Shown here in pieces: positions 3,457 through 63,397 of a DNA stretch of 64,000 bases (position 1 is its first letter; each line of letters starts with the position of its first letter). The notes beneath the pieces were generated by a model, which did no database searches, was not told the origin of the DNA, and saw only the letters and a list, made by a program, of their open reading frames with translations. The stretch lies in assembly GCA_020342235.1 (NCBI GenBank), contig CP073217.1:1240001-1304000 (forward strand). The letters run 5' to 3'. Both the position numbers and the translations under genes were made by a program. The stretch is from Saccharomycopsis phalli (Eukaryota > Ascomycota > Saccharomycetes > Ascoideales > Saccharomycopsidaceae).

Positions 3457-3787
3457 CCAGGTACACCATAGCCTTTTTGGCAATGTATTAATTAAAATGT
3501 TTGGTTGGTAAATTGCATGTATGTTGTGCCGGGTAACTCGGGTGTTTTGGCTAAACTCTGACTCGATTCCATTGTCCCATCCAACAGGAACAACACCATC
3601 AGGTTGGTATTCTGGAGAAAGTCAATAAGTGCAACGCGATTTGAGATAGTACAAGTTATTTTTTTTGTATCACTTGTCAAATATTAGCGACATATTATCA
3701 ACTGATTAAACTCTAATTACGGGAATTCCCTGAGCAACTTTGGTTGTTTACATTTTAATTAATATATTATTGCAGGCAACGTGAACC
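3457..3787. other. Intergenic, upstream of the velvet gene
   Basis: AT-rich sequence between YVC1 and the velvet-domain gene. A 62-codon open frame on the minus strand (3492-3680) resembles nothing I know. AT-rich stretches near 3715-3770 may belong to the velvet promoter. Confidence 0.5.
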
Positions 3788-4979
3788 ATGGCCAAGACAT
3801 GCTACCAACTAAAACCGGTGCCTGAGGGTACGATAAAGCCCATCAATGCAAATTACCAATTGGAAATAGTACAGCAGCCGCTCCAGGCTAGAGCTTGTGG
3901 AAGCACAAAATCTTGTAAGTACAATTTGTGCCTGCTACTTTGGCGTCACCAAGGGTCAGTATTACTAACAAACAGTCGCCGGACGTCGATCGATAGACCC
4001 ACCACTGATAGTAAAAGTGGCCTTGTACACCGGGCGAGGATCGGATGTCGTTGATCACTCGTACAATTTTTTGATCATGACGGTCACGGCTGAATTGGTG
4101 GACCAGAGCGAAGAGAACCTCGGGACACCTGCAAGTAAAAAGAATTTTAAAAAGAGAAAGCCGAACCTTGAGAAAAACAAAAACAATCTTATATTTGGAA
4201 CTACCAGTGTGGCTGCTAATATTTTGACCAGCACGGGTAAGCCTGATGACGAAGATGCTGGCCTAAAGGCGTATTTTGTCTTCAGTGATATCTCCGTGAG
4301 ATACGAGGGATATTACAGGTTAAATTTCAGATTATTCGAGTTCCCTTTGACTAGGCAGAACATCGTCCCTGGAACCACTGGCCTTATATACCGAGGAGGT
4401 CTCAAGACCGAAATCTTCAAGGTGTACAACGCCAAGTATTTCCCGGGATTGACGGCCTCTCCAAAGCTAACAGTGGTGTTGAAAAAGATGGGCTCAAGAA
4501 TAAGAGTGCGAAAGTCTGCAAAACGACCTTATGAAGTCGATGGCCAAGAAAAGATGGGGCAGGACGGCAACATTGTACCGTCGAGCAACTTGAAAGTACT
4601 TTCCGAAATATCATCGGCCTTGCGGTCGGAGCAGGGCGCCGACGGGCAGAAAAACGGAAACAATGGCACTCAGTTCCAGCCAAATTTCTATTCACAGCAA
4701 GCAAGTTCCGCGGGCTATTCTGGTACATATCCCTATGGCCAACAATATTATACGTTTGATTACTCCCAAACAGGACAGAGCACGTATGGAATGGAAAGTA
4801 AAACTGCAGACGGTATACCCATTCCTCCGCCAAATATTGTGGCAGCTGCAACAGAGGCAGCTAATGCTGCTGTAAATGCACAGCAGCAGCAGCAACAGCA
4901 CCAGGCAAAAGAAACCTCTGACGAAAATATAGATGACGAATTTAAAAAAGACGCACATAATCTTATCAAGGGCGAATAA
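3788..4979 (+). CDS. Velvet-domain transcription factor-like protein (spliced)
   Basis: Two exons, 3788-3914 and 3976-4979, joined across a 61-nt intron (donor GTAAGT, branch TACTAAC, acceptor CAG), give 376 residues. Splicing rebuilds an unbroken velvet domain: YQLEIVQQPLQARACG at 23-38, RRSIDPPLIVKV at 46-57, YFVFSDISVRYEGYYRL at about 142-158, and FKVYNAKYFPGL with GSRIRVRK at about 190-222. Velvet proteins are fungal NF-kB-like factors (VeA, VelB, VosA, VelC) that control development and secondary metabolism. As in VelB, a basic, low-complexity insert (about 88-135) splits the domain. The C-terminal third is Gln/Asn/Tyr-rich with a CAG-encoded glutamine run. The CTG in the DPP-x-IV motif would be Ser in this yeast. 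The gene is convergent with its right neighbour. Family call is strong; VosA/VelB placement is open. Confidence 0.9.
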
Positions 4980-8935: not shown

Positions 8936-11900
8936 ATGTCTACCGCAAGTTCATCAAGTCCCGGACTATCTCCTACTTCCAGTGTTTCCAGCTTGGGGTT
9001 GAACTCCTCATATCTCCACTCGGAATTATCAAACATCGCGTTTGAAAACCAAATCACATTCTACTTAAATGGTAGAAAGGCGACTTTGAAGAACCCAAAT
9101 CCCGATGGCTCGCTATCAGACTTTATCCGCTCGGGGAAGTACATGAATCTCACCGGGACTAAAATAGGATGTAACGAGGGGGGTTGTGGAGCATGTACCG
9201 TTGTGATTGGTAGCTTTGATAAAGTCAAGGGAAAGGTGTATTATAAAGCTGTTAATTCCTGTATTGTCCCACTACTTGCTATTGACGGTACGCATTTGAT
9301 TACTATCGAAGGCGTGGGTTCAGTTGATAAACTACATCCAGTGCAAGAACGATTGGCGAAATTCCATGGGTCACAATGCGGGTTTTGCACCCCGGGGATC
9401 ATCATGTCAATGTACGCGTTGCTTCGTAACAATCCCAAGCCTCATAAGGAAGAAATTCTAGAAGCATTGGATGGAAACTTGTGCAGATGCACCGGTTACA
9501 TTACCATTATCCACTCTTTGATCACTTTTGCTAGTGACTATGATCCAGAAACCAACTCATTGACAGAATTAAGCAAGAATTTGACGCTTGGGTCTTCAAA
9601 TGGTCTGGTTTGTGCTAAAGGGGATCAATGTTGTAGAGCTGACCAAAACAAATCACATTGTGCCTCTCCAAACACTGAAATTGACATGAACGATAAGTTC
9701 TCATTATTTTCGCCAAACGGATTACCATTGAAAAAGTACGATCCAAGCGACGACTTGCCATTCCCTGCTGAGTTATTGAGGTATAGCCAAGTCCCAATTT
9801 TCTACGGGAACGATCACAAAGTCTGGATCAAACCTGTTACCAAGACCCAGTTGCTTCAATTAATTGCCTTTTACAAGAAGTTTCCCAATGTTTCGTACAA
9901 GTTGGTATCCGGTTCGTCAGAGTTTCAAGTTGAGAGTTATGTTAACCCATTGCTAGACATTCAAGTCATGATATACATAAACCACATCCTGGAATTGAAC
10001 TCATATTGGAAATTTGATTCCCGTGGACTAGAGATTGCTGGAAATTTCAGTTTGACTAACTTGGAAGAGGTATGCGAGTCTTTGTATTTGGATCAAGTAA
10101 ATAAAAAGGGATACAGCGGACCAGCACAAGTATTCGGTGCTATAAAGGACCAGCTTAAACTCTTTGCAGGTAGACAGATTAGAAATGCGGCGACTGCACC
10201 AGGAAACATTGTTACTGCGTCTCCTATTGCTGATTTGAATCCTTGTTTGGTAGCTTCTGGAGCCACCTTTACTTGTGAGTTTTTGGACCCTGAAAAGTCC
10301 GTATTTTCAGAAAAGAAGATATCTTTACACGATTTCTTTGTGGGATATAGAAAGACTATGCTCCCACCTGATTCTCTCATCACCAAGATCAATATTCCAG
10401 TGACAAAATACAGTGACCCTGGTACTTTGACAGAAGCCAGTGAGTTTGAATTCATAAAAGCATATAAACAAAGTAAGCGGCGTGATGATGATATTTCTAT
10501 TGTCAGTGCCTGTCTTAAATTGGGGTTTAAGTATAATATGACTGCTTCTGGGGATGGCATCAACAGGTTTACTATTACTGGCTGTACTCTTGTATATGGC
10601 GGGATGGCACCTATGACGGTAGTTGCTAAAAAAGCAGCAGAGAAATTGATTGGAAAGACAGTTTCCGTTCCCTCGGACCAGGTAAATGTTGAAAGATGTT
10701 TGGAAGAGAACAGCGAGATATTGGAGGAAGGCATAAGCGCATTATCTGAAGAGTTTGATCTTCCTTTTGGGGTCCCTGGGGGCATGAGTAATTACAGAAG
10801 GTGCTTGACTGTATCTTTCTTTTATAAATTTTTCCAGTATACGTTAAGTGGTTTGGAAAACATCACCAATGGTGCTGAGATTGCTGATATTCAAGCCTTG
10901 GACACTATAGAGAGACATGTTCCAAAGGGGAATAGAGATCTTACGCAGCCATTCAAGGAGAAAGTGGTAGGGGGCTCGGATGTACATCTTTCAGGGTTGA
11001 AGCAGGTCACTGGAGAGGCAATTTACGTTGAAGATATGCCTATCCAGCATAATGAACTACATGGTGCATTGGTGATGTCCACGCGGGCCCATGCAAAAAT
11101 TGTCAGTGTGGACTACTCGGAGGCATTGGCATATAGTGATAGCATTATTGGATACCTTGATGTTAATGATGTTGAAACCAAGGAAATGAATCTCTGGGGC
11201 AACTTTGATTTTGGAAGAGAGGAGTTCTTTGCCGATGGCGAGGTGAAGTTTTACGGACAGACCATTGCCGTGATTATCGGTGAGGATAGGCACAAGTGCT
11301 ATGAAGCAGCCAAAAAGGTCAAAGTTGTATACGAGGATTTGAAGCCCGTAATCAGTATTGAGGATGCAATTGAAGCGGGATCTTTCTTTGACGATGATAG
11401 AATCACTGAAAAAGGGGACTGGGAGCTGGCATTTAAAAATGCAAAGTATATTTTTGAAGACACTACGAGAATTGGGTCACAGGAGCAGTTTTACTTTGAG
11501 ACTCAGAACTGCTTGGTGGTACCAGAAGAAGACTCGGAGCTAAAGATATACTCTTCTACACAGAATCCAACAGAGGTGCAAGAGTATGCGTCGCACATTA
11601 CTGGAGTTCCCTTCCACAAGATTGTCTGTCGGGTTAAGAGACTAGGGGGAGGATTTGGTGGAAAGGAGTCGAGATCGGTTATCTACTCTTCGATTGCGTC
11701 GTTGGCAGCACTCAAGTATAAAAGGCCTATTCGGATAGCCTTGACGAGAATGGAAGACATTCTTACCACCGGACAGCGGCATCCGTTTTTGATGAAGTGG
11801 AAGGTCGCAGTTGATGGCGACTACAAGTTCACTGCGATTGATGCCAAGTTGTACGCCAACGCAGGCTGGTCTATGGATTTGTCACGAGGGGTCATTGACC

Positions 11901-13279
11901 GTGCGGTTTTCCATGCTGCCAATTGCTACAACTTTCCAAATGCTCGATTGCACGGGATTCCTTGCAAGACCAACACGATTTCCAATACTGCGTTCCGTAC
12001 GTTTGGCGGGGTGCAAGGATGCTACTTGGCGGAGAGTATTGTGTATCACATCAGTGAAAGAATGCTGATTACCCCTGAAAGGTTGAGAGAAATCAACTAT
12101 CTTGGCCTGGGGGATACTACGACGTACAAGCAACTAGTTGGCGACGACTATTCGGTTCCGGCATGCATAGCGGAAAACCAGCAGCAAATTGGGTACGATG
12201 CGGCCCGGCAGGAGATTGAGGAGTTCAATAGGAAAAGCAAGTGGATCAAGCGGGGAATTGCCCAGGTTCCTTGTATGTTTGGCATTTCTTTTGGCGTCAA
12301 GTTCTTGAACCAGGCCGGGGCACTCGTGCATGTGTATAAGGATGGGTCGGTGTTGGTGTCACATGGAGGCACAGAAATGGGACAAGGGTTGCACACCAAA
12401 ATGGCCATGGTAGCGGCCGAGGAGTTGGGTGTTCCATTGGAGAAGGTTTTCATTTCAGAGACGTCGACTCAGGTTGTGGCCAATACGTCGCCGACTGCTG
12501 CTTCAGCTTCGACGGACTTGAACGGTATGGCGGTGCAATATGCGTGCGAGAAGATTAAAAAGCGGCTTGAAGCGGTGAGAGTAACCATGGACGAGGGAGC
12601 GACGTTTGACCAGGTTGTGAACAAGGCGTATTTTGACCGAGTGAACATGTCTGCGAATGGGTTCTACAAGACGCCTGATATTAACTACGAGTGGGGTGTT
12701 CCGAATCCTGGGCCGGTGTTTTCGTACTACACGCAAGGCGCTGCTGCCTCTATAGTGGAAGTTGATACGCTTACAGGCGACTGGACGTGTCTCCGGGCGG
12801 ATGTGAAGATGGATATTGGCAGGTCCATCAACCATGCGGTGGACATGGGCCAGATTGAGGGGGCGTTTGTACAGGGAATGGGCTTGACCACGATTGAGAA
12901 CTCGCTCTGGATGCGACGCACTGGGGCACTAGCCACCACTGGACCAGGGTCGTACAAGATTCCTGGGTTCAAGGACGTGCCGCAGCAGTTTAATGTGTCG
13001 TTCTTGACCGACCGGGACTTTACGCACTTGAAGACGGTGAAGTTTTCCAAGGGGATTGGCGAGCCACCGTTGATTTTAGGCATGCTGGTGCATTTTGCGA
13101 TCCGAGATGCCCTTGGCTATGCGAGACGGGAACATGGTATTGTGCTGGGGAGCAGGGACGTGCCGATGGTGAGTCCCTTGACTACGGAGCGGATTAGAAT
13201 TGCCGTGGGCGACGGACTAGTTAAGCGTACTGAGACGAAGCCACATGGTGACGAGGCGAGCTTTTTCATGGAGGCGTGA
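8936..13279 (+). CDS. Xanthine dehydrogenase (molybdenum hydroxylase)
   Basis: A full-length 1447-residue enzyme oxidising hypoxanthine to xanthine and urate. Domains in order: plant-type 2Fe-2S cluster with Cys79, Cys84, Cys87 and Cys109; the second 2Fe-2S cluster with Cys148, Cys151, Cys183 and Cys185; an FAD domain (about 290-620, with GRQIRNAAT and GNIVTASPIADLNP at about 412-436); and a molybdopterin domain from about 680 to the end with GGGFGGKES and EMGQGLHTKM. The catalytic base is Glu1376 in GIGEPPLILG (codon 13061-13063). No peroxisomal C-terminal signal is visible. A CTG at 13085-13087 falls where other fungal enzymes have serine, evidence for the CUG-Ser code. Nothing suggests decay. 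Its downstream neighbour on the same strand begins only 30 bp on. Confidence 0.96.
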   Translation: MSTASSSSPGLSPTSSVSSLGLNSSYLHSELSNIAFENQITFYLNGRKATLKNPNPDGSLSDFIRSGKYMNLTGTKIGCNEGGCGACTVVIGSFDKVKGKVYYKAVNSCIVPLLAIDGTHLITIEGVGSVDKLHPVQERLAKFHGSQCGFCTPGIIMSMYALLRNNPKPHKEEILEALDGNLCRCTGYITIIHSLITFASDYDPETNSLTELSKNLTLGSSNGLVCAKGDQCCRADQNKSHCASPNTEIDMNDKFSLFSPNGLPLKKYDPSDDLPFPAELLRYSQVPIFYGNDHKVWIKPVTKTQLLQLIAFYKKFPNVSYKLVSGSSEFQVESYVNPLLDIQVMIYINHILELNSYWKFDSRGLEIAGNFSLTNLEEVCESLYLDQVNKKGYSGPAQVFGAIKDQLKLFAGRQIRNAATAPGNIVTASPIADLNPCLVASGATFTCEFLDPEKSVFSEKKISLHDFFVGYRKTMLPPDSLITKINIPVTKYSDPGTLTEASEFEFIKAYKQSKRRDDDISIVSACLKLGFKYNMTASGDGINRFTITGCTLVYGGMAPMTVVAKKAAEKLIGKTVSVPSDQVNVERCLEENSEILEEGISALSEEFDLPFGVPGGMSNYRRCLTVSFFYKFFQYTLSGLENITNGAEIADIQALDTIERHVPKGNRDLTQPFKEKVVGGSDVHLSGLKQVTGEAIYVEDMPIQHNELHGALVMSTRAHAKIVSVDYSEALAYSDSIIGYLDVNDVETKEMNLWGNFDFGREEFFADGEVKFYGQTIAVIIGEDRHKCYEAAKKVKVVYEDLKPVISIEDAIEAGSFFDDDRITEKGDWELAFKNAKYIFEDTTRIGSQEQFYFETQNCLVVPEEDSELKIYSSTQNPTEVQEYASHITGVPFHKIVCRVKRLGGGFGGKESRSVIYSSIASLAALKYKRPIRIALTRMEDILTTGQRHPFLMKWKVAVDGDYKFTAIDAKLYANAGWSMDLSRGVIDRAVFHAANCYNFPNARLHGIPCKTNTISNTAFRTFGGVQGCYLAESIVYHISERMLITPERLREINYLGLGDTTTYKQLVGDDYSVPACIAENQQQIGYDAARQEIEEFNRKSKWIKRGIAQVPCMFGISFGVKFLNQAGALVHVYKDGSVLVSHGGTEMGQGLHTKMAMVAAEELGVPLEKVFISETSTQVVANTSPTAASASTDLNGMAVQYACEKIKKRLEAVRVTMDEGATFDQVVNKAYFDRVNMSANGFYKTPDINYEWGVPNPGPVFSYYTQGAAASIVEVDTLTGDWTCLRADVKMDIGRSINHAVDMGQIEGAFVQGMGLTTIENSLWMRRTGALATTGPGSYKIPGFKDVPQQFNVSFLTDRDFTHLKTVKFSKGIGEPPLILGMLVHFAIRDALGYARREHGIVLGSRDVPMVSPLTTERIRIAVGDGLVKRTETKPHGDEASFFMEA

Positions 13280-19134: not shown

Positions 19135-19688
19135 TTATAGTCTAGTACTTTTTAGCCTAATTGTAAAATATATAATATGAATTAACGAAATGCATCTGTT
19201 AGCACGCTTAAAAATAAGTTCTTGGCTATTGTAACAAAACGTTATGTCACTGTACTCAAACTAACTGAGTACTGCCACTCTTAAACCCTGGGAAGGCAAT
19301 TTATTAAAGTTTAATGACCTTACAGCAACCTAAAACCGTAATCAGATGATGTTGCAAAAATAGACACTATATTACGTCAGAGACAATAGTAATTCAAAAA
19401 AAATTCAGATAGAAAAACTTTAAGAGGAAAATATTTGATGTGAACTTTGCTTTTCTCGTTCTGTAAGCTTACGGGAACTTCCCTAAATTCAATGTACACA
19501 GTTATAATACTTCAAGCGGTCCCAGGTATTGGGGCGAGTTTCAGCCAGTGTCCCGTGCAGGGAAATTCATGTTTGATGTGCGCAATAATGTAACTAAAAA
19601 GGAAAGTCCAGAAAATGCATATAAAAGGGACACCTTTCCGAGGACACCGTTTATTTCTAATAGATACTGTGTTTGTCTTTGCTGTCAA
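19135..19688. other. Chitinase promoter region
   Basis: 554 bp without a gene. It carries the TATA element listed next and AT-rich stretches (19375-19435) that could bind regulators. No other structure was recognised. Confidence 0.5.
19620..19627 (+). promoter_or_regulatory. TATA box of the chitinase gene
   Basis: A TATAAAAG sequence 62 bp before the chitinase start codon. The spacing fits a regulated, TATA-dependent cell-wall gene. Confidence 0.6.
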
Positions 19689-20786
19689 ATGAATTTGATT
19701 CTTGCACTCTTCACATTTTTGATCTTTGGCTGGTCCAAGGCCTTTGACATTAACTCCAACAATAACATCGCCCTTTACTGGGGACAGAATACACTTGGAA
19801 CTAAAACTGGGAACCAGGCTAGTGAACAAAATTTGACTTTTTACTGTGACAATAATGATGTAGATATTGTCTTGTTGTCGTTTCTCAATAAGTTCCCGGG
19901 TCAAAATGGCGTGCCTACACTTACATTTCATAACTTCGAATTCTCTAATCTGTTCCGCAATCAATTAACTGACTTGGCCAATCAAATTAAACAATGTCAA
20001 GCCAAAGATAAATTAGTTCTTCTTTCTTTGGGAGGTGAAGGTACCGGTTATGGATTTCAGAATGATTCGCAAGGTACTGAATTTGGAAATAAACTATGGA
20101 ATATGTTTGGCCCAAAAAACACTTCTACCAACAGCTCTGAGCTTAGACCTTTTGGCGATGTTTTGGTTGATGGTTTTGATTTGGATGCAGAAAACCACAA
20201 CGAGACTGGTTATATTAACTTGTTGTACACATTAAACCAGTATGCCAATAAAACCGAAGCCAACGGCAAGAAGTTTTACCTTTCAGTTGCCCCACAATGT
20301 CCATCTGACAAAAACAACCTTGTTGAAGTCTTGAGTAGCAACTTCTTTGACTTTGCTTTTATTCAATTTTACAACAATGAATTTAACTGTGATGCTAATA
20401 CCGACAAATTCAACTGGGCGTGGTGGGCTGATTGGGCTGCTAACCAATCGAGAAATAAGAATGTGAAATTATTCCTTGGTCTTCCAGGAAGTTCAAGTGC
20501 CGCGGCAAGTGGATACATTTCAAATTCAACAGTTCTTGGCGAGAAGGTATACCAAGCCTCCAGAAACAGTTCTTTTGGTGGAATTTCTATATATGATGCG
20601 TCTACAGCGTTTCACAATAATGATACAAGTGATGGAAACTACTTGGAGACTGTCCAAAGTGCCTTCAGTTATCAGCCTCCTGCTGCTAAGTCCACTTCCA
20701 AGTCAAAGGGTGCGGCAGCTACCTTGGGCAGTAGCAGTGGTTTCTCCTTGAGTGTCTTACTTTTTGCTATACTCAGTGTGTTTTAG
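19689..20786 (+). CDS. GPI-anchored GH18 chitinase
   Basis: A 365-residue family 18 chitinase of the Cts1/Cht type. A signal peptide covers about residues 1-18 and mature sequence begins near FDINSNNNIALYWGQN. The chitin-site motif LLSLGGEGTG is at about 111-120. The catalytic DGFDLDAE motif has Asp161, Asp164, Asp166 and the acid Glu168. Many N-glycosylation sequons are present. A Ser/Ala/Lys-rich stalk precedes a C-terminal hydrophobic tail (about 350-365), consistent with a GPI signal, as in C. albicans Cht1/Cht2. The enzyme remodels chitin at the cell wall or septum. There is no separate chitin-binding domain. An ATG 47 codons upstream in frame would hide the signal peptide and is rejected. 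Confidence 0.93.
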   Translation: MNLILALFTFLIFGWSKAFDINSNNNIALYWGQNTLGTKTGNQASEQNLTFYCDNNDVDIVLLSFLNKFPGQNGVPTLTFHNFEFSNLFRNQLTDLANQIKQCQAKDKLVLLSLGGEGTGYGFQNDSQGTEFGNKLWNMFGPKNTSTNSSELRPFGDVLVDGFDLDAENHNETGYINLLYTLNQYANKTEANGKKFYLSVAPQCPSDKNNLVEVLSSNFFDFAFIQFYNNEFNCDANTDKFNWAWWADWAANQSRNKNVKLFLGLPGSSSAAASGYISNSTVLGEKVYQASRNSSFGGISIYDASTAFHNNDTSDGNYLETVQSAFSYQPPAAKSTSKSKGAAATLGSSSGFSLSVLLFAILSVF

Positions 20787-39049: not shown

Positions 39050-42000
39050 TCACGATGAAATCAATATAAAACTAGTAATCTTGTCAAACCGCTCGCTCAA
39101 TAGGTTGATTTCAACAAGCAACAACTCGTTGGCAATATCATTGTAGTCCTCTAATAGCTTCTCAAAACTCTCAAGCGTCAACGTCCAGATCTTCGAGTTA
39201 CTGAGCGCAGAAATCTTCAAATTTCTAGTACTTCTGCTCATGAGCGTGTCACGCTCCACCCCCAAAGACCCAAACGCCGTCTTCGGCACCAACGTTTCAG
39301 ATATCTTCCCTTGGCTGTAGTCGTAGCTAAGCAGAATCAACCCCGATTCAATGATAAAGAAAAACTCCTTGGAATCACTAAAAACACTTTTATTTTGAAC
39401 ATCAGCCGGCGAGACTACCGGCGAGTTGTTCGAACTTATTGAGTAACTCGAACCCTTTGTGAGCACAGACTCGCTCAAGTACGGTATCAAGGGCTTCCAA
39501 AACTCACTTGGCTTGTGTGATATCCCTTTAAATGTAGTCTTGATCAATTTGGCAAGGTTCATCTCAGGGTCGTCTTTCACAGTATGCGAAACAGTTCTAT
39601 TCAAATCTCCACTCTCATTCCGCGTGGCCAACTTGTTATAAAAGCTATTTTCCTCATTGACAGATTTGGTAATAGCCTTGAGGATATTTTTTTGTCTTGG
39701 CGATCCCATTCCACTGTGATTATTGATTAGCGACATTGGATTTAAGTAAGATTCCGTCAAATTATACTTGAAATCATCAGAGTTGGCACGATGGCCATGT
39801 ACGGGAATTGCCAAATTTGTAGGCGTTTGACGTTGCGCTGTGCCGTAATTCAACAATGGATTCCGAACGGATACTGTAGAGTTAACACGGTCTTTTCGTT
39901 GATTGTGTGCATTCCGCAAGTTGTAAATACTAATCAAGTATTCGTTTTCACACCATTCCAAGGCCGAGTTCAAGTCATGGAACAACTGGGTAGGGTTCTC
40001 ATCTTTTGACTCATATACATTGATCAAGCCAACATTGAACAACGACTTATAAATGGCATCATTATTTATCGATGAAATTATCAAGTAACAGTTGTTTCTT
40101 CGGGTGAAATTCTTGATAGATTGAAACCCTTCGGCAGCAGTGTAGTCCACTGAAAAAACCGAATTCAAATCCAACACCACGTAACGAAAGTTGTACTCGT
40201 TGACGTTGTTTTCAAAATGTCTCTTAATTTCCTGTTCAATTTTTCCAATAGTTCCAAAAAAGATGTTCCCTTGCAACTTAAAAATCAAAGTTTGACTGCC
40301 AACATTCTTTAGGAATATATTCGTCAAGTGATTTCTATTGGTGGTCAGTCTGATAAACTCACCTGTCAATATCTTCTTAATTGGGTCTTGGCTGGCATTC
40401 TCCACCACAAAAGAAATGAATGCAATCAAAATACCCAAGATAATCCCATAGACAAAGTCCCACACTCCCATGGTTAAAATAATAATGATAATTGTGCAAT
40501 AGTCAAAGGTAGACAACTTGGAGTAAGAATCAACCAAAGACTCTTTCAACAACTCATACCCGAGTAAAAAGATCAAAGAGCCCACGACACAAACGGGGAT
40601 GAATTTGATCAACGAAGGTCCAATAAACATGACAATAGCCGTGGTTCCAGCTAGTAAGATACCAGCCAATTTTTTCTCCCCAACTCCCGATCTGATGAAT
40701 AACAAGGAATTGGAATAAACTAAATAGTTTTGGATAGATCCAACCATACCTGAAATAAAGTTTGAGTACCCATGAGCGATCAATTCATGATTGACGTCAA
40801 AATCATCCTTTTGTAAGGAAATTGCTAATGCAGGGACATTGATAGGCACATGCAAGATTCCAAAGAAGGTCAACGCAAGCATGGAAGGAATTTCGCCGGC
40901 AATCAAAGACCACCTGACCTTGTTAAACTTAAACAATGTATAAAAGTAGTACCAAGAGTCACTATTGACAGCAGTAGTTACATCTTTAGTAGTTACTCCA
41001 ACTGAAGGCACATCAAATACAAATCCATGATCTCTAGCTGATTGCAAGTCCCAAGATGGAACTATCCAGATGAGAAGGTGTATTAATCCGAATATACCCA
41101 TAAAATATACTGGAAGCAACAACGAGTACGACGCCAATCTTTTTGAACACGTCTGCATTAAAATGAGCACTGCAGTCATCAAAACAGAAGAAAACCACTT
41201 GACAAAGGTGATGCCAGTAAACAAAAACAGTAATGTATCCCACGAATAGGTAAACGTACTTGTCATTCTCGAGGTGACTTCAATGCCAGTGATCATCAAG
41301 AAATAGCCCACTCCTCCAATACAACCGATCAAAATATGCCGAGGAAAGAAGCCAATCAATTGACCCAACTTGAACTTACCTAGAAGAAAAAACGTTAATC
41401 CGGTAAGCAAACATGAAATGCAGTAGCATGTAATTGTTGTAGCAACAATAGCGTCTTTGTTGGCGAATGACAGATCAGTGCCAATGGTATTCATAATATT
41501 AATGGCCATCGAGTGAAAAAAGGGCGTAACTTCAATCATTTCGGAGCCAACCGCAGAGACAAAGGCAGAGCCACCCAAACTAAACACCAACTGGGACACA
41601 ATGCAAGAAATATAGAACATAGACAATCCAGCGGGCCCTAAATCAGCAAACAACGGCTTATTAATGGGGAATATGATCATCCCGTAGGATAATGCGTCAA
41701 GGATGTTCAACAATAGTCCGAGAAAGACACTAGGCATTAAGCTTATACATTCAGAGGCAAGCTCGTTTAAGGAGCCAAATTTCCCAGAGGGCTCCACTGG
41801 ATCTAAAATATAACCACTATGACTTGCGTTGTCCTTGCTGATGTTTAAAAGCTTGTTTGACACTGAGCGATTGATTTTCTTGGTGAAGTTTAAAATGGAG
41901 GATGTCTTGGATGCAGAATGATTATCAGAATTAGAATATTGGTTAGCGTCGTAGTAGTCAGAGCCATTTGCACTATGACCAAGCAACGCGTTGAATGACT

Positions 42001-42361
42001 CCAAGTCTTGTGGTTGGTCTTCGGTGGTAAGCAATTGGGTGTTTTCGGTAGGTTGCTTGTAGTAGTTTGCAGATGTCGTGGGGGCTAATTGAACACTGCT
42101 AACATCATCAGTAAGAATCTCCTCCGAACCATCGCCAACAAATACAGGGAATCCAACTATGTTTTCTTCGATATTTCCGGCTTCAAAGTCTATCGAGGAT
42201 AGCTCTGCAGTCTTGGTGTGAATTTGTAGCTCATTATTTATGAGTTGTATGTCCCTCGAAGGTTCCGAGGACCCAACACTCTCAGCCAAGCCCTTTCCAC
42301 TACCTAAAACCCTAGAGGACCTCCGAAACCTACTTTCGTTTTTAAGCGAATTACTCAACAT
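39050..42361 (-). CDS. VSB1: Vsb1-like vacuolar SulP transporter with STAS and cNMP domains
   Basis: A 1103-residue protein like S. cerevisiae YGR125W/Vsb1. A long, acidic, disordered N-terminus (about 1-190) precedes a SulP/SLC26 membrane core of roughly 10-12 helices (about 210-640). A STAS domain follows (about 670-800; IFFGTIGKIEQEI and YVVLDLNSVFSVDYTAAEG). The C-terminus holds a cyclic-nucleotide-binding-like fold (about 940-1080; FFFIIESGLILLSYDYSQG). Vsb1 is required for storing basic amino acids, arginine especially, in the vacuole; transport of sulfate is not implied. It stands near the TANGO2 and UTP8 genes, as in S. cerevisiae. Confidence 0.9.
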   Translation of the reverse strand: MLSNSLKNESRFRRSSRVLGSGKGLAESVGSSEPSRDIQLINNELQIHTKTAELSSIDFEAGNIEENIVGFPVFVGDGSEEILTDDVSSVQLAPTTSANYYKQPTENTQLLTTEDQPQDLESFNALLGHSANGSDYYDANQYSNSDNHSASKTSSILNFTKKINRSVSNKLLNISKDNASHSGYILDPVEPSGKFGSLNELASECISLMPSVFLGLLLNILDALSYGMIIFPINKPLFADLGPAGLSMFYISCIVSQLVFSLGGSAFVSAVGSEMIEVTPFFHSMAINIMNTIGTDLSFANKDAIVATTITCYCISCLLTGLTFFLLGKFKLGQLIGFFPRHILIGCIGGVGYFLMITGIEVTSRMTSTFTYSWDTLLFLFTGITFVKWFSSVLMTAVLILMQTCSKRLASYSLLLPVYFMGIFGLIHLLIWIVPSWDLQSARDHGFVFDVPSVGVTTKDVTTAVNSDSWYYFYTLFKFNKVRWSLIAGEIPSMLALTFFGILHVPINVPALAISLQKDDFDVNHELIAHGYSNFISGMVGSIQNYLVYSNSLLFIRSGVGEKKLAGILLAGTTAIVMFIGPSLIKFIPVCVVGSLIFLLGYELLKESLVDSYSKLSTFDYCTIIIIILTMGVWDFVYGIILGILIAFISFVVENASQDPIKKILTGEFIRLTTNRNHLTNIFLKNVGSQTLIFKLQGNIFFGTIGKIEQEIKRHFENNVNEYNFRYVVLDLNSVFSVDYTAAEGFQSIKNFTRRNNCYLIISSINNDAIYKSLFNVGLINVYESKDENPTQLFHDLNSALEWCENEYLISIYNLRNAHNQRKDRVNSTVSVRNPLLNYGTAQRQTPTNLAIPVHGHRANSDDFKYNLTESYLNPMSLINNHSGMGSPRQKNILKAITKSVNEENSFYNKLATRNESGDLNRTVSHTVKDDPEMNLAKLIKTTFKGISHKPSEFWKPLIPYLSESVLTKGSSYSISSNNSPVVSPADVQNKSVFSDSKEFFFIIESGLILLSYDYSQGKISETLVPKTAFGSLGVERDTLMSRSTRNLKISALSNSKIWTLTLESFEKLLEDYNDIANELLLVEINLLSERFDKITSFILISS

Positions 42362-62254: not shown

Positions 62255-63397
62255 TTATTTGGACTGTGCAAGTCCAATGGTGTATGCTTCGAGGTCATAA
62301 TATACATAGGCGGATCGAAGAAACTCGTCGCCTAAGCTGTACAAGTTGGCAGAATTTTGCTTGATGCCCAACTGACAGCTGTTATCAGAAGATTTATAAA
62401 TGAAGTTGGTAAAAGGTACCAGAATGATTTTGTTGTTAAACTTGAATTCAATTGGGTCTCCGGTAGCATCACAAGCGATGTTATACAAGTCCGCACTCTT
62501 GGTTCCAGAAGTACCATACTTTGCTACAACTTCGTTGTAAACTGCTGGTGGGAATTTCACCATGGTGAGCCCAGAATCAAGCAATGCTGGGTATGAGTTG
62601 CTGCTGAACGCCTTGCCGCTCTGTGAAACACTGGCAAGATCCACATAAAACTTGCTAGGCTTGCCATCAATCATAAAGTCTGGCACTCGTGCAATTGGAA
62701 GAGTCTCCAAATTGCCATCATACTTGGATCCCTCTGGGCTTCCGAAAGTTACGGTACCGTATGTCTTTTCTTGTCGATCAAGGTAGAGGGCGTAAGCGGC
62801 CTTACTAATGTATCCTTGTGCTTTGAGTGCCAAGGGGAAGTTGTTGTACTGTTGCCCGTTGATTCCCATCTCAAGGCTCTGCAAGCCTATACCCAAGATA
62901 CCTCTTCCGGCAGTTTGGCTGAGTCCCACGCCAAAATTAAAGTCCTTCAAACTCCAATTTCCCCCAAAGCTCACTGTGTCTGATCCCCATACCCCTTTCG
63001 CATAGGTCAGATCGCTGTAGGAAATGTTGAACCCATCAGCTACTGTTTTGTATGTGTTGGATTCGGATTTGTCAAACGTGCCATAGCTAGAATCTGTTCC
63101 TACGGCAGGAACCCAAAGATCAGAGGAGCCGGTGTCGAGACTGACCTGGACCTTTTGGCCATTTGAGCCTATTTCGAGCTCAGCAAGATACTGTGTGTAA
63201 TAGTTTTTGACATCCAAGGTAATAGACTTGTCCTGCACACCTTCAGGAGTAGCAAGTACCTGCTGTGCATGCTGTTCTTCATGTTGAACTGCGAATTGAA
63301 ATGAAATCAGGTCTGAGTCCCTTGTCTGCAAGTCAATTGGCCGAGCTCTCAAGACTGTTAGCTGTACGAGTGAAATTACTAGTATGATCAATTGCAT
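62255..63397 (-). CDS. Secreted aspartyl protease (SAP/candidapepsin family)
   Basis: A 380-residue pepsin-fold protease. Signal peptide about 1-18 (MQLIILVISLVQLTVLRA), then a short propeptide. The first catalytic Asp is in LDTGSSDLWVPA (about 86-97) and the second in ALLDSGLTMVKFP (about 275-287), where Candida enzymes usually read DSGTT. The flap region is ahead of VWGSDTVSFG. Two C-terminal cysteines (near NIACDATG and DNSCQLG) can form the standard disulfide. No Lys-Arg Kex2 site is clear before the mature start. There is no GPI signal, so the enzyme is probably released. Upstream ATG codons would place residues before the signal peptide and are not used here. Confidence 0.92.
   Translation of the reverse strand: MQLIILVISLVQLTVLRARPIDLQTRDSDLISFQFAVQHEEQHAQQVLATPEGVQDKSITLDVKNYYTQYLAELEIGSNGQKVQVSLDTGSSDLWVPAVGTDSSYGTFDKSESNTYKTVADGFNISYSDLTYAKGVWGSDTVSFGGNWSLKDFNFGVGLSQTAGRGILGIGLQSLEMGINGQQYNNFPLALKAQGYISKAAYALYLDRQEKTYGTVTFGSPEGSKYDGNLETLPIARVPDFMIDGKPSKFYVDLASVSQSGKAFSSNSYPALLDSGLTMVKFPPAVYNEVVAKYGTSGTKSADLYNIACDATGDPIEFKFNNKIILVPFTNFIYKSSDNSCQLGIKQNSANLYSLGDEFLRSAYVYYDLEAYTIGLAQSK

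Follow-up and report, generated by a model that had tools for sequence, protein, structure and literature searches.

We analysed a 64,000-nt window of the yeast Saccharomycopsis phalli genome (assembly GCA_020342235.1, contig CP073217.1, positions 1,240,001 to 1,304,000 of the forward strand), which carries a gene for a velvet-domain protein interrupted by a single short intron (Table 1). The genome comprises 14,148,124 bases in 8 contigs, and the GC content of the window is 43.4%; the species, S. phalluae (S. phalli), is described as the agent of yellow rot of a cultivated mushroom, with a published GC content of 43.55%. Ordinary nuclear genes surround the velvet gene, among them those for ATP synthase b, GPI2, a DUF5315 protein and a channel of YVC1 type.

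Joining of the two exons gave an open frame of 376 amino acids (aa), while without splicing the frame of exon 1 departs from the velvet frame and then runs into a stop. The branch site is a perfect TACTAAC and the donor matches the consensus; the combination of donor, TACTAAC and YAG occurs three times on both strands of the 64 kb, this intron included. Two independent facts support the splice. In the annotated S. crataegensis orthologue (P0002, DASC09_008290), the segment ARACGSTKSFAGRRSIDPP runs uninterrupted over the exon junction and is identical to the spliced window protein, and the paralogue C5:388k was modelled with a 46-nt intron whose codon position and phase match those of the window intron. 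The intron is very probably real. In two other orthologues, P0001 and P0003, the start falls inside exon 2, as expected if the intron was missed by their gene callers. The earlier note on this DNA had proposed that removal of this intron restores an intact velvet domain, and the spliced protein indeed contains all four sequence blocks it had named, from QQPxxARACG to FPG...IRVRK. The profile search that it had suggested as a check returned a significant match to the Velvet profile of Pfam (PF11754), with 124.8 bits where the cut-off is 25 and an E-value of 7.1e-36; this is the only Pfam family recognised in the protein.

Table 1. Features of the velvet gene, in window coordinates
Feature	Position	Strand	Basis
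Start codon ATG	3788	+	spliced reading frame
Exon 1 (aa 1-42 plus one base of codon 43, the first): start codon, initial velvet strand, beginning of DNA-binding region	3788..3914	+	
Intron, 61 nt, phase 1: GTAAGT donor, TACTAAC branch site, CAG acceptor	3915..3975	+	
Exon 2: remaining velvet domain, tail, stop codon	3976..4979	+	
Velvet domain, aa 22-225, split by the intron	3851..4523	+	PF11754 and fold of orthologue P0002
Sole CTG codon of the gene, aa 53, DNA-binding region	4005..4007	+	family alignment
Basic patch KKNFKKRKPNLEKNK, aa 97-111, in variable region	4137..4181	+	identical in P0001, P0002, P0003
G117, counterpart of Aspergillus nidulans VelB G240	4197..4199	+	alignment
L207, counterpart of VelB L331	4467..4469	+	alignment
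Conserved segment NLKVLSEISSALR	4587..4625	+	helix predicted with low confidence at aa 256-270 of P0002
Acidic segment DENIDDEFK, close to C-terminus	4920..4946	+	identical in P0001, P0002, P0003

The bounds given for the velvet domain were set by us from the alignments; the better of the two Pfam stretches covers aa 106-222. The fold of P0002 is the Rel-like beta-sandwich. VelB residues G240 and L331 are both critical for velvet dimerisation (PMC12077163), and the window protein keeps their counterparts, G117 and L207. In the putative DNA-binding loop, R46 and R47 are kept and align with VosA R41 and K42, so that some of the DNA-contacting residues are conserved. Opposite VosA K37 and K39 the window protein has T40 and S42, with K41 sitting between; the KS...RR loop of A. 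nidulans VeA is similar. By our count on the alignment, seven residues separate the loop glycine from RR in the window protein, eight in VeA, and five in VosA and VelB. The conserved basic patch is a possible nuclear localisation signal, and the acidic DENIDDEFK segment a possible activation or docking motif.

The earlier note had called the organism a CUG-clade yeast, which is right only to the extent that CUG is read as serine in the congener S. schoenii (PMC6508603). Saccharomycopsis is placed in Ascoideales in the NCBI taxonomy; this group goes by the name CUG-Ser2 and stands apart from the Candida clade. A yeast of the Candida CTG clade was ruled out as the source, the nearest named protein being from S. 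crataegensis, whose genus belongs to Ascoideales. ARAGORN called a CAG tRNA at none of 41 loci (11 resembling the tRNA-Ser(AGA) of the window and 30 of the 64 listed tRNA places; two, L063 and L065, were without a call), and the presumed serine reading in S. phalli rests on the S. schoenii report. At the only CTG codon of the velvet gene, the S. crataegensis orthologue has proline; among the 12 other family members in the genome, this alignment column is proline in 10 and alanine in 2. This CTG is a single base away from CCG.

In all, 13 velvet-like genes were found in the genome, that of the window among them. Searching with the Velvet profile gave 14 matching pieces belonging to 10 genes, and single-protein searches added C5:926.9k, C6:617.5k and C6:618.5k. 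Such counts are lower bounds. The Pfam cut-off of 25 bits was passed by 11 of the 13; the remaining two, scoring 20.8 and 23.7, were counted in because they match C5:920k with E 1.2e-17 and 1.3e-15. We sorted the family into one clear VelB, four VeA-like genes including that of the window, one unplaced gene (C8:291k) and seven divergent genes. An intron was modelled in the window gene, C5:388k and the VelB gene C5:374k, and in each of the other ten a single open frame, as modelled, spans the start codon and the domain. C5:374k is VelB by sequence: it matched the solved VelB at 7.9e-53 and is 72% identical to S. crataegensis DASC09_046630, and further VelB relatives came from Wickerhamomyces ciferrii and Trichomonascus. 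It lies about 14 kb from the VeA-like C5:388k on the same contig. The other two VeA-like genes, C1:1856k and C1:727k, form a pair that groups with P0124-P0128 (100/99) and stands beside the window group, as does C5:388k; the tail of C1:1856k holds a run of KQDYGM-like repeats. Twelve velvet genes, called an extended family, were reported in S. fibuligera (PMC5106798), a case of the same kind of expansion in the same genus. The passages of that paper give the count without a classification, whereas the 13 genes of S. phalli resolve into six canonical and seven divergent ones.

The reading that we consider likely is that the window gene codes for a velvet transcription factor of VeA-like type, which Saccharomycopsis has retained by descent. 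Among solved structures compared by sequence, A. nidulans VeA came first (5e-14), followed by VelB (2.1e-10) and VosA (2.5e-9), and VeA was also first for C5:388k. With A. nidulans VeA (9i2s) the window protein shares the velvet fold, the QQPxxARACG start, a long basic loop before RRxxDPP, and FxVYxAKxFPGLT; it differs in its length of 376 aa, against about 573 aa for A. nidulans VeA, and in that no light sensors were found in the S. phalli genome. VelB has a velvet domain as well, but in S. phalli it is a separate, clear gene, and a clade of VelB with the window orthologues was rejected (p 0.0013), although one with the wider VeA-like set was not (16-row tree, p 0.089). That the protein is instead of VosA or VelC type, acting for example on spore maturation, we regard as unlikely. 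The predicted fold does not decide, as VeA and VosA were tied in VIA-align and VosA came first in Foldseek (E 3.1e-9); immunoglobulin-like folds ranked after the velvet matches and have no meaning here. The trees, in which the VeA and VosA clades were each represented by the A. nidulans protein alone and VelC by none, are compatible with both assignments: the whole VeA-like set could be joined with VeA (p 0.23 and 0.13), and joining it with VosA was not rejected either (p 0.137 and 0.066). Joining VeA with the window group alone was rejected (p 0.0086), also after addition of C5:388k (p 0.017); a clade of VosA with the C1:1856k/C1:727k group was likewise rejected (p 0.0049), and one of VosA with C8:291k gave p 0.15; neither of these last two tests helped to place the genes. 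When VelB served as outgroup and four divergent rows were omitted, the yeast set took in VeA (95/90) and VosA fell outside, in a tree for which the program warned of long branches. A profile search for wider VeA, VosA and VelC sequences scored 7993 candidates and returned eight proteins, all near the Saccharomycopsis set, so that the trees lack depth. Sequence and loop spacing favour VeA.

As to origin, retention by descent is the expected reading and transfer is without support here, since the velvet genes of S. fibuligera and a VeA clade of Saccharomycotina have already been published. PMC10845976 holds that velvet genes were present in the ancestor of Saccharomycotina and that the majority of genomes in the subphylum show none. 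It names a Sac-VeA clade of 31 proteins, which is of the same type as the window gene; the latter is probably a further member of it. The rarity of velvet genes in the group is what speaks for horizontal transfer from a filamentous fungus, an explanation that we find very improbable. Descent is favoured because orthologues exist within the genus and VelB occurs in other yeast genera. P0002 is 55% identical to the window protein over 98%, two further orthologues are 83% identical over 86% and 48% identical over 77%, and P0001, P0002, P0003 and the window gene form one group in the tree (100/99). Against transfer there also stand the shared intron position of the paralogue C5:388k, the native composition and neighbours, and the absence of filamentous VeA from two protein searches with the window gene, which gave 3 and 8 matches and reach only relatives sharing exact words. 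The third-position GC content (GC3) of the velvet gene, 0.485, lies within the 0.42-0.78 range of 14 window open reading frames picked by us. The preference of the earlier note for retention over transfer was borne out; its account was incomplete, as the gene is no isolated oddity but one of 13, and velvet genes of budding yeasts are in the literature. The large family, its long branches and the tandem copies elsewhere in the genome might suggest a decaying or non-functional duplicate, but we give this hardly any credence, given the open frame, the canonical intron, and orthologues at 83% and 55% identity with conserved motifs outside the domain.

The seven divergent genes (C8:42k, C5:67k, C5:920k, C5:922k, C5:927k, C6:617.5k and C6:618.5k) form one clade (98/94), and five of them lie in two tandem groups (C5:919.9k, 922.5k and 926.9k; C6:617.5k and 618.5k). 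The tail of C5:926.9k holds WREEK repeats. All seven have Rx(F/Y)Y where the canonical proteins have KxFPG, so that the column of the FPG proline is tyrosine in 7/7, compared with proline in four and aspartate in two of the six canonical proteins, and their terminal basic strand is not recognisable. The column of VelB L331, where the alignment is loose, holds leucine in 6/6 canonical proteins and R, R, F, F, I, I and I in the seven divergent ones in the order listed; A. nidulans VeA itself has isoleucine there. The G240 column holds glycine in 12 of the 13, and cysteine in C5:67k. Since these two positions are critical for velvet pairing, the divergent proteins may pair differently. We tentatively propose, as an idea that is more doubtful than not, that Saccharomycopsis has its own velvet network, in which the seven proteins, with a rebuilt C-terminal dimerisation half, would pair selectively with the factors of a VelB/VeA-like core or inhibit them, and tune a switch to fungus-attacking growth, without light input. 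The divergent clade, seen in one genome, is possibly the new element here; that budding yeasts have velvet genes, and that the family is expanded in Saccharomycopsis, is already published, and the window gene is a further member.

In the mechanism that we envisage, the VeA-like protein would enter the nucleus via the conserved basic patch, pair with VelB (C5:374k) and perhaps also with its sister VeA-like proteins, and bind promoters through the N-terminal basic loop. It would thereby switch gene sets for starvation-linked programmes such as sporulation, filament or peg formation, and enzyme secretion, and would do so without the light input known from moulds. Light input seems unlikely, because no profile match to phytochrome (PHY), photolyase/cryptochrome (FAD_binding_7) or PAS_9 was found in the genome. 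Methyltransf_23 matched at 14 places in the genome, 11 of them above the cut-off, and none could be identified as LaeA. The Ste12-type element TGAAACA does not occur on either strand upstream of the velvet gene (3461-3787). The role of the gene may be control of filamentation, sporulation or stress, as the earlier note suggested, or equally well a starvation or predation switch. Searches of one open-access library listed no work on the function of any Saccharomycopsis velvet gene. Gene deletion works in S. schoenii (PMC11392346); the predation regulators shown are Kil1 and Ste12, with additional transcription factors also forming part of the response. In moulds, velvet studies have light, multicellularity and secondary metabolism entangled. 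Saccharomycopsis, a genus that attacks other fungi, keeps VelB and an expanded family of these mould-type control proteins, and so offers a simple system for velvet dimers without fruiting bodies or detected light sensors, in which it can be asked whether velvet factors take part in predation.

Several other genes of the window were noted. A xanthine dehydrogenase/aldehyde oxidase-type molybdenum enzyme with seven matched Pfam domains is encoded on the forward strand (8936-13279), and a MoaC gene of molybdenum cofactor synthesis is present at C3:1262917 in the same genome; to our knowledge, many budding yeasts lack enzymes of this type. The reverse strand carries a SulP permease of 1103 aa with a STAS domain and a weak cyclic-nucleotide-binding match (39050-42361), which is presumably of a different, vacuolar type from the sulfate uptake genes. 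Such uptake genes are reported to be missing from three Saccharomycopsis species (PMC6508603). A GH18-family protein (19569-20786, forward strand) and an aspartyl protease (62255-63397, reverse strand) are also encoded; the genes listed as expanded in S. schoenii include those for endochitinase and aspartic protease (PMC6508603).
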